A DNA stretch of 64,000 nucleotides from Schwartzia succinivorans DSM 10502 (GTDB taxonomy: Bacteria; Bacillota; Negativicutes; Selenomonadales; Selenomonadaceae), in the NCBI RefSeq assembly GCF_900129225.1, contig NZ_FQUG01000002.1, positions 496,001-560,000 on the forward strand, given 5' to 3'. Positions 35,936 to 54,597 of this stretch are shown here, piece after piece (the stretch's first letter is position 1; every line of letters begins with the position of its first letter). The notes under the pieces were generated by a model. It ran no database searches and had not been told where the DNA came from. It saw only the letters and a program-made list of their open reading frames with translations. The translations under genes were made by a program, and so were the position numbers.

Positions 35936-36367
35936 TTATTCGAAAATCCTAAATAAATCGCACTCTATGAGGCGTATGTTTTCAATGGGGATTTTGGTAT
36001 TGTCTGTCATGTGCAGAATGCGTTTTACCCCGTCAAGATTTTTAAGGTTTCCGGAGACCGTTATATAGCGGCCTCCGGATTTTTTTTCGTCCTGATGAAA
36101 GTAGGTTACTGTTATAGAGGGATGCTCTTTCAGGTGCTGTTCGAGTACGGCAAGTCTGGCATCCAGCATTTCTATCATATCATCGCTGAGTTCCTTTTTT
36201 TCGTCTGTCAGCCGCGCTTCTTCGCGGGTGGCTTCGTCATACCCCGTGAGCGCGGCGAACGGAGAGAACTGCGCTGCCCTGTTTTCCATTGTCATACGTG
36301 GATGAGTGGAAGGCTCCGGGTGGGGCAGGTGTATTATATCGTCGTAACGTTGAATATCTTCGTTCAT
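35936..36367 (-). CDS. YolD-like partner of the Y-family polymerase
   Basis: 143 residues, in the motif pattern MENRAAQFSPFAALTGYDEA followed by a charged helix (LDARLAVLEQHLKEHP) and a beta-rich end (ITVTYFHQDEK, RYITVSGNLKNLD). These are features of the YolD-like family, which accompanies Y-family polymerases in Firmicutes (compare Bacillus YqjX next to YqjW). It overlaps the polymerase stop by 4 bases and so is translated from the same message. Its biochemical role is unknown. Confidence 0.85.
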   Translation of the reverse strand: MNEDIQRYDDIIHLPHPEPSTHPRMTMENRAAQFSPFAALTGYDEATREEARLTDEKKELSDDMIEMLDARLAVLEQHLKEHPSITVTYFHQDEKKSGGRYITVSGNLKNLDGVKRILHMTDNTKIPIENIRLIECDLFRIFE

Positions 36368-37875
36368 GCTTTGTGGCCTCCTACCTGTTGATTACGTTCA
36401 ATAGTCATAGCGTCCTGTTCAAGGTTTGAGCCCTTCAGTATGGCATTTTTGCCGAATTTTTCTTTTATGGCAATCATGGCATGCTGGAGTGATTTTTCTT
36501 TTTTCTCCTCGGCTTCGTTTTCTTTTCTTTCCTCGGCAGCCGCTTTGTAATCCGTAAAAAGTCCAAGCTGCTCTGTTTTGTCTGCTGGCTTTGGCAGGCT
36601 TTTTTCATCTACCACGTGATTGGCTGTAACTGTGACACGACGCACGTACAGGTTCGTGTCTGTTATACGCTCGTAGAGTTCAATCACGGCTGCGAGAATC
36701 TTCTTTGATGAGGATGTGTGCTCACCGAGATTGATTGAGCCGTGGGCGGGTTTTGGGACGGTACGTCCGTAATGGTCGGTATGAACTCCGCCTTTATAGG
36801 AATTGCGCATGTTTTCAATGTCGTAGCCGATGTTTAGTACAATCTGGTCTGTAACCAGTCCCTTCGCTACGAGGTCAAGAACGAGAAGGTCTGTCATTTC
36901 CCAGACGATGAGCCGTCCTTTTTCGTGGGAATAGGGTTTTTGAAGCACCTGTCCTGAGCCGATACTGTTCGAGGCAGGCTTGTAAGCCTTTATGGCTGCC
37001 ATTGTACATGGTTCCCAGCCCCAGGCATGGTCTATCAGAAGCTCGGCGTTTATGCCGAACAGCTTATACAGCAGGGCTTCGCTGTGATATTCGTTTCTAC
37101 TGCCCAGAGAACATCGGGCGATGTCTCCCATTGTGTGCAGCCCGTTGGCTTCAAGTTTCTTTGCGTAGCCTTTCCCTACACGCCAAAAATCCGTCAGGGG
37201 CGTATGCGTCCATAACTTTTCACGGTAGCTCATTTCGTCAAGCTCAGCTATCCGTACACCGTCCTTGTCTGCAGGCATTTTCTTTGCCACGATATCCATA
37301 GCGATTTTGGCGAGATACATATTTGTCCCTATGCCTGCCGTGGCGGTGATGCCTGTTTCCGCGAGCACTTCGCGAATCATTTTCAGGGCAAGCTCATGGG
37401 CGGTAAGACCATAGGTTTTTAGGTAGGGAGTCACGTCCATGAAAACCTCGTCAATGGAATAAATATGGATATCCTCCGGGGCGATATACTTGAGGTAAAT
37501 CCCGTAAATACGGGTGCTGTATTTCATATACAGTGCCATACGGGGGACTGCTGCGATATATGAGACAGCCAGGGCAGGATTTTCGGAAAGTTCATTTGCG
37601 TCGCAGGATTCACCTGTCAGTATGTGGTTTGGCGCCTTTGCCCTGCGGCGTATGTTCGCCTCTTTTATTTTCTGTACAACTTCAAAAAGCCGTGCACGCC
37701 CAGGAATGCCGTAGGTCTTAATAGCTGGGGTGGCGGCAAGGCAGATTGTTTTTGTCGAGCGGCTTTCGTCCGCAACTACAAGATTTGTGGTCAGCGGATC
37801 GAGTCCGCGTTCTATGCACTCCACAGATGCATAAAAGCTTTTAAGGTCGATGGCTATATATGATGAGGCAGTCAT
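36364..37875 (-). CDS. Y-family DNA polymerase (UvrX/YqjW type)
   Basis: Translesion polymerase, 503 residues. The catalytic palm is intact: AIDLKSFYASVE (first Asp and its Glu) and YSIDEVFMDV (S-x-D-E). The LAATPAIKTYGIPGRARLFE segment is typical of the UvrX/YqjW branch rather than DinB. The fingers, thumb (ETGITATAGIGTNMYLAKI) and little-finger regions follow. GGAGGATT precedes the ATG. A LexA-like box lies 77 bases upstream, so it is probably SOS induced. Confidence 0.93.
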   Translation of the reverse strand: MTASSYIAIDLKSFYASVECIERGLDPLTTNLVVADESRSTKTICLAATPAIKTYGIPGRARLFEVVQKIKEANIRRRAKAPNHILTGESCDANELSENPALAVSYIAAVPRMALYMKYSTRIYGIYLKYIAPEDIHIYSIDEVFMDVTPYLKTYGLTAHELALKMIREVLAETGITATAGIGTNMYLAKIAMDIVAKKMPADKDGVRIAELDEMSYREKLWTHTPLTDFWRVGKGYAKKLEANGLHTMGDIARCSLGSRNEYHSEALLYKLFGINAELLIDHAWGWEPCTMAAIKAYKPASNSIGSGQVLQKPYSHEKGRLIVWEMTDLLVLDLVAKGLVTDQIVLNIGYDIENMRNSYKGGVHTDHYGRTVPKPAHGSINLGEHTSSSKKILAAVIELYERITDTNLYVRRVTVTANHVVDEKSLPKPADKTEQLGLFTDYKAAAEERKENEAEEKKEKSLQHAMIAIKEKFGKNAILKGSNLEQDAMTIERNQQVGGHKA

Positions 37876-37951
37876 GATAATCCTCCGTGAACAACTAAAA
37901 ATGGCTTATTCGAAATATAGTTAACTTTTGTTTGAGAAAAAGCCTGATTTT

Positions 37952-37965
37952 AGAATAAACGTTCT
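37952..37965 (-). promoter_or_regulatory. LexA-like SOS box upstream of the Y-family polymerase
   Basis: AGAATAAACGTTCT matches the Gram-positive LexA consensus CGAAC-RNRY-GTTYG in 10 to 11 of 14 places: GAA, purine-N-purine-pyrimidine, and GTTC are all right. It lies 77 bases before the polymerase start. A second weaker copy, CGAAATATAGTTAA, lies between it and the gene. Confidence 0.6.
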
Positions 37966-53802: not shown

Positions 53803-53808
53803 GTAATA

Positions 53809-53853
53809 ATTCTCCATACAGCATTGAAAACGATGCTGTGTGGAGAATTTTTT
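53809..53853 (+). terminator. Terminator after the TPR gene
   Basis: ATTCTCCATACAGCAT (53809-53824) pairs with ATGCTGTGTGGAGAAT (53833-53848) with one G-U, followed by TTTTT. Confidence 0.92.
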
Positions 53854-53879: not shown

Positions 53880-53978
53880 CGAACAAAATTTCTTGGAAAA
53901 TATGTTCCGAAAGTATTGCACGAATATCTGTTCTGTGATAATATAGACACGAACAAAAGTTCCAAGAAGATGTGTTCG
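53880..53978 (+). promoter_or_regulatory. Cluster of LexA-like SOS boxes
   Basis: Five 14-base sites resemble CGAAC-RNRY-GTTYG. The best is CGAACAAAAGTTCC (53950-53963), near-consensus. Next is CGAATATCTGTTCT (53921-53934). Weaker ones are CGAACAAAATTTCT (53880-53893), GGAAAATATGTTCC (53895-53908) and AGAAGATGTGTTCG (53965-53978). Two lie over the spacer and start of the promoter, so LexA would cover it. Confidence 0.75.
53916..53944 (+). promoter_or_regulatory. SOS promoter of the YneA-like gene
   Basis: TTGCAC (53916-53921), a 17-base spacer, and an extended -10 TGA-TAATAT (53936-53944). The -35/-10 spacer holds one LexA-like box and the start site (about 53951) holds the best one. Confidence 0.7.
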
Positions 53979-54002
53979 AGAAACTTACGGGAGATGTTGA
54001 TT

Positions 54003-54296
54003 ATGAAAAAATTGATTTGGGCATTCGCTGCACTTTACTTGTTTCTTTTTCCTCCGTTTAACCTGGATAATGCTTATCTCAGAAGTGACAGATTTGATAC
54101 GGTTACAGTATCACGTAATGAAAGTGTATGGGATATTGCAGGACGTTATACTGTTGACGGAAAACAGGCAAAGAAGCTAACCGCGGCAATTATTGAGGTC
54201 AATGGTTTAACCTCAGATGGCGCTGTACGCACCGGACAAAAGCTCAGAATCCCTGTACTGGTGAAGGAACTGCCACCCCAGATGGCTGAAAGATAA
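54003..54296 (+). CDS. yneA: YneA-like SOS cell-division suppressor (anchor plus LysM)
   Basis: 97 residues. ATG 54003 follows ACGGGAG by 9 bases. One N-terminal membrane helix (LIWAFAALYLFLFPPF, about 4-19), a short extracytoplasmic region, then a LysM domain (FDTVTVSRNESVWDIAGRYT, GAVRTGQKLRIPV, about 35-88). This is the layout of Bacillus YneA, which blocks division after DNA damage. The LexA-like box cluster upstream supports the call. lexA itself, normally next to yneA, is not in the neighbourhood. The gene stands alone. Confidence 0.8.
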   Translation: MKKLIWAFAALYLFLFPPFNLDNAYLRSDRFDTVTVSRNESVWDIAGRYTVDGKQAKKLTAAIIEVNGLTSDGAVRTGQKLRIPVLVKELPPQMAER

Positions 54297-54390: not shown

Positions 54391-54597
54391 ATGAATTCGG
54401 AAATCATTAACCTGATTCGTACAGAATCTAAAAGCAAAAGCTCGGATGCACTTGATAAGATTATTGCATGCTGCGGGCACATGAAGGAAGTCGGTATCAA
54501 CGGAAGAGATATTGATTCTATCAATGGATACGTGACAGTCCTTGTGACACAGGCAGCAAAGGAAGAAGTTGCAGAGCTTTTGGAGAGGCAGGATTAA
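54391..54597 (+). CDS. Small hypothetical protein
   Basis: 68 residues, soluble, helical; begins MNSEIINLIRTESKSKSSDA and ends AAKEEVAELLERQD. Two cysteines (ACC) sit in the middle. AAGGAG precedes ATG 54391, and it has its own promoter and terminator, so it is likely real. No family is recognised. Confidence 0.6.
   Translation: MNSEIINLIRTESKSKSSDALDKIIACCGHMKEVGINGRDIDSINGYVTVLVTQAAKEEVAELLERQD

Follow-up and report, generated by a model that had tools for sequence, protein, structure and literature searches.

The region between positions 53,880 and 54,296 of the window, by which we mean the whole stretch of 64,000 nucleotides from Schwartzia succinivorans DSM 10502 that was analysed, is very probably, on the evidence of its sequence, an SOS-controlled promoter with a multi-box LexA operator, together with the gene that it drives, which encodes a YneA-like division inhibitor. 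Both this type of gene and its control by LexA are known; what appears to be new is a yneA-like gene that stands alone with a crowded array of boxes spaced 15 bases apart. The features to which we refer, with scores and ranks from the LexA matrix described below, are as follows:

36364-37875, minus strand: Y-family polymerase gene, followed by a weak YolD-like match (region 35936-37965)
53808..53849, plus strand: terminator-like hairpin of the upstream gene, 19 pairs and a T tail, separating that gene from the array promoter
53880..53893, no strand: LexA-like box 1, CGAACAAAATTTCT, in the upstream pair; 9.4 bits, window rank 5
53895..53908, no strand: LexA-like box 2, GGAAAATATGTTCC; 1.45 bits, window rank 61
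53916..53921, plus strand: -35 element TTGCAC; TTGnnn is invariant in an alignment of 10 promoters
53921..53934, no strand: LexA-like box 3, CGAATATCTGTTCT, in the -35/-10 spacer; 11.1 bits, rank 1
53939..53944, plus strand: -10 element TAATAT, with TGA before it (extended -10); position conserved
53950..53963, no strand: LexA-like box 4, CGAACAAAAGTTCC, on the predicted transcription start; 10.5 bits, rank 3
53965..53978, no strand: LexA-like box 5, AGAAGATGTGTTCG; 11.1 bits, rank 2
54003..54296, plus strand: yneA-like gene, 97 aa; N-terminal hydrophobic anchor, then one LysM domain

Inspection of the sequence places five GAA-N6-TTC palindromes in 99 bases (53880-53978), as the preliminary description had claimed in speaking of five 14-base LexA-like sites inside 100 bases. 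Against the consensus used there, CGAAC-N4-GTTYG, the boxes at 53880, 53921 and 53965 have two mismatches each and that at 53895 has three (the mismatch search listed matches with two or fewer, and the three were counted by eye); the site singled out as the best, nearly perfect and on the predicted start is indeed the one at 53950, with a single mismatch. Is such a consensus sufficient to recognise an operator? Across the window it is not enriched when two mismatches are allowed (62 matches vs 95 in shuffles), so the case depends on the clustering of the sites and on better models, and we substituted a trained matrix. This matrix is symmetric and 14 bases long; its 47 training sites come from the promoters of recA, lexA and yneA in other families of the class, the window's own family being left out. 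When the window was scanned with it, a check that had been proposed at the outset, the boxes at 53921, 53965, 53950 and 53880 took ranks 1, 2, 3 and 5 among 63,987 positions, so that four of the five boxes match the matrix and the one at 53895 (rank 61) does not. Sites of at least 7 bits number at most one per 100 bases in 360 kb of the same contig, vs four at the array. Exact GAAC-N4-GTTC sites are not enriched elsewhere in the genome (16 vs 72 for a reversed control), and two of the most LexA-like among them, C9:481 and C15:108858, were dropped as both lie within reading frames.

The two promoter elements are separated by a spacer of 17 bases, and their bases are kept in an alignment of relatives; the promoter was not listed by a generic promoter scanner. 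Box 53921 overlies the spacer, as had been described, and also touches the final base of the -35 element, so that the array overlaps promoter elements, and it is conserved in relatives. Both box pairs, 1-2 and 4-5, have a start-to-start spacing of 15 bp and are, taken together, a direct repeat (28 nt, 79% identity); in the whole 2.66-Mb genome the compound pattern GAA-N6-TTC-N3-GAA-N6-TTC is present at these two pairs and nowhere else. The pairs also make up a long inverted repeat, which might be read as an RNA hairpin; we dropped this reading because the promoter sits between the arms.

A matrix scan of 32 promoters from the window's family found two to six boxes in each. The adjacent spacings include 24 pairs at 15 bp, most of the others being 25-30 bp, and a 15-bp pair is present in 18 of the 32 promoters, including genera whose box sequences differ from those of the window. 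Shuffled family promoters yielded about 0.14 sites each (4.5 in total over the set) and no 15-bp pair, and downstream control sequence 0.04 sites per 245 nt at 5 bits. In the ten-promoter alignment boxes 2, 3, 4 and 5 are common to several genera, while box 1 is kept mainly within the genus, including the relative G001, and is patchy beyond it. Despite its low matrix score, box 2 is the upstream box best conserved in the family alignment (GAAAATATGTTC); box 4 is conserved there too, and so is box 3, which is also kept in further families of the class, whose yneA promoters have two to four boxes. The family's boxes deviate from strict GAAC-N4-GTTC at the inner C and G of the half-sites, and the YneA-like frame of one genome, G010, has no recognised box within the stretch examined.

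The protein has a hydrophobic segment that begins at residue 4 (mean 1.61 across 17 residues) and a LysM domain at residues 35-84 (Pfam, 33.4 bits), which gives it the topology of YneA, an N-terminal transmembrane segment and one C-terminal LysM domain in about 100 aa, and confirms the anchor plus LysM that had been noticed. The NCBIfam YneA model is by far its best match (35 bits, E 1e-8, residues 5-85), but the score is below the cut-off of 60 bits of that model (NF010723); for this reason we claim no equivalog membership and call the protein YneA-like only. The identity first proposed is thus upheld by topology, by synteny in relatives and by the best NCBIfam match, and is weakened by a score under that model's cut-off. 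Against this model homologues from two other families score 51-53 bits, and 35 of 60 sampled genomes have one homologue each, with anchor and LysM kept in the alignment. A scan of this genome's contigs returned weak LysM relatives only, and a search for a solved relative of the protein found none. Beyond yneA lies an open frame of 68 aa (54391-54597), which has no match in Pfam or NCBIfam and to which a similar sequence adjoins yneA in G001.

That lexA is absent from the neighbourhood of yneA, as the preliminary description had it, is correct: in this genome yneA is not a divergent neighbour of lexA, although in five genomes of other families (G043, G041, G045, G038 and G039) the two genes are divergent neighbours that share boxes. 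The lack of a lexA gene from the whole genome, which had been named as grounds for abandoning the reading, is excluded, since a single full copy of LexA is encoded on another contig than yneA (C5:34807, 72.6 bits). It has the LexA_DNA_bind and Peptidase_S24 domains, and its translation shows an Ala-Gly cleavage site, a GESM serine and a lysine. On contig C5 the gene lies in the leader region that follows yraN, and that leader contains a mobile element of about 13.3 kb (L151:1464-14761, which is G000 C5:21464-34761) with genes for a tyrosine integrase, two transposases, an SNF2 helicase, a radical SAM protein and a citrate-lyase-ligase-like protein. The element is flanked by 18-bp repeats, GTATAAATTATCGGAAGT, of which G001 has a single uninterrupted copy; the element severs lexA from its own box-bearing promoter and leaves it directly behind the integrase gene. 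In lexA promoters of the family (e.g., L093, L081 and L088) a conserved motif, GAACATAYATATGRTATA, overlaps the -10 region as a half-kept LexA box.

Other genes of the genome carry similar boxes. Upstream of recA there is a LexA-like box, AGAACTTTTGTTTG, of 14.4 bits that is identical in G001, and upstream of the Y-family polymerase gene there is a pair of LexA-like sites (37921 and 37952), one of which ranks fourth in the window; the polymerase and the weak YolD-like gene are likely to form a second SOS operon in the window. No convincing box was found near the start of uvrB, a start located imprecisely, or near that of the other dinB-like gene.

Do LexA and the YneA-like protein travel together? 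Among 151 genomes of the family, counting strong matches only (the YneA matches show a gap between E 6e-23 and 1e-8), 66 have both, two YneA only, 18 LexA only and 65 neither; these counts and their p-values treat genomes as independent, without correction for phylogeny. Hence 66 of the 68 YneA-bearing genomes also carry LexA. The two with YneA only are incomplete assemblies (G127, 93% completeness; G157, 82%), and the G157 promoter retains its boxes, so that the assembly probably just lacks the LexA gene. The traits vary together within one genus, g17, with nine genomes having both, one YneA only and at least seven neither. As a separate observation, LexA went undetected in about 65 of the 151 genomes (e.g., G002, G004, G006, G008, G012 and G013), many of them near complete, and recA is retained in those LexA-less genomes that were checked.

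Control of the yneA-like gene by LexA, as first proposed, is well supported as a prediction because the matrix is independent of the window and the boxes are conserved across many genera, because the genome has a full LexA and both recA and the Y-family polymerase gene in it have LexA-like boxes, and because YneA is almost never found without LexA. Could a different repressor that reads GAA-N6-TTC bind here instead? The drift of the family's boxes at the inner C and G would suit such a regulator, but a matrix whose training promoters (recA, lexA and yneA) lie in other families finds its best matches in the array, the same type of box stands at recA, and YneA is nearly absent from genomes that lack LexA, and we regard this explanation as very improbable. 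It is also improbable, if less so, that the gene is SOS regulated and its product binds the wall for some purpose other than arresting division. The sub-threshold YneA score and the occurrence of LysM domains in many kinds of protein would allow this; yet no other NCBIfam model comes near the YneA match over residues 5-85, the relatives in two other families score higher against that model, yneA is divergent to lexA in the five genomes named above, and the transmembrane and LysM parts, both needed in YneA (PMC13396833), are present here.

The explanation that competes most seriously with a five-box operator accepts LexA and holds that only two or three boxes matter (53921, 53950 and possibly 53965), the others being decayed or incidental and without special cooperativity. 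Other families of the class manage with two to four boxes, box 1 is patchily conserved and box 2 has just 1.45 bits; on the other hand, conservation of box 2 across genera is strong, and more than half of the family promoters have the 15-bp pair, among them some with divergent box sequences. We consider this a realistic possibility, if on balance not the probable one. A little more doubtful, and put forward tentatively, is the proposal that the family's LexA acts on yneA through a 15-bp-phased array on which several dimers assemble, relaxed boxes being read by avidity. If it were true, yneA would be the most tightly controlled gene of a small SOS regulon and the last to be induced, and the loss of YneA when LexA is lost would be explained.

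Returning to LexA control through the multi-box operator, we envisage that in an undamaged cell LexA dimers would occupy up to five boxes across the upstream flank, the -35/-10 spacer and the start, and that the occupied array would exclude RNA polymerase. After DNA damage, RecA filaments would trigger self-cleavage of LexA and the promoter would be freed. The 97-residue protein would then insert via its N-terminal helix, exposing the LysM domain on the outer side, and, like YneA of B. subtilis, may arrest division by blocking septal wall synthesis until repair is complete. Cooperativity between boxes 15 bp apart, and with it very tight control, may be suggested by the array, but a spacing of 15 bp sets neighbouring dimers on different faces of the helix, so that mutual contact is not assured. 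The predicted operator of this SOS division brake has changed within one class, the starting point being two or three boxes, in many cases common to yneA and lexA, and the outcome an array of five or six at most that stands alone. The roughly 150 genomes in which LexA and YneA have been kept or lost together are a natural comparison set, one that makes the silencing of a self-harming inhibitor testable by comparison.

As an SOS-induced brake on division, the predicted protein would resemble SulA, SosA, SidA and ChiZ, among which SulA is cytoplasmic and targets FtsZ there, and SidA is not known to have a LysM domain like that of the window protein. SosA is without a LysM domain, whereas ChiZ has the anchor plus LysM topology of the window protein (for both, PMC13396833). 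Colicin promoters, at which LexA binds two overlapping SOS boxes cooperatively to control a harmful gene (reviewed in PMC11332147), are similar in the close packing of their LexA sites, but they differ in LexA motif, host and gene, and have two boxes rather than five, and cooperativity at the window array is putative. Another close parallel is yneA of B. subtilis, whose product requires both its transmembrane and its LysM parts and has FtsW as its partner (PMC13396833). In B. subtilis and C. thermocellum, lexA and yneA are reported to share the region between them, in which three LexA sites lie upstream of lexA (PMC8457756), an arrangement that the divergent lexA-yneA pairs of the five other-family genomes resemble. 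The window gene, by contrast, stands alone with lexA elsewhere, has five boxes that include two 15-bp tandem pairs, and encodes a protein under the NCBIfam YneA cut-off; with B. subtilis yneA it shares an anchor and a single LysM domain in about 100 residues, and LexA boxes at the promoter.
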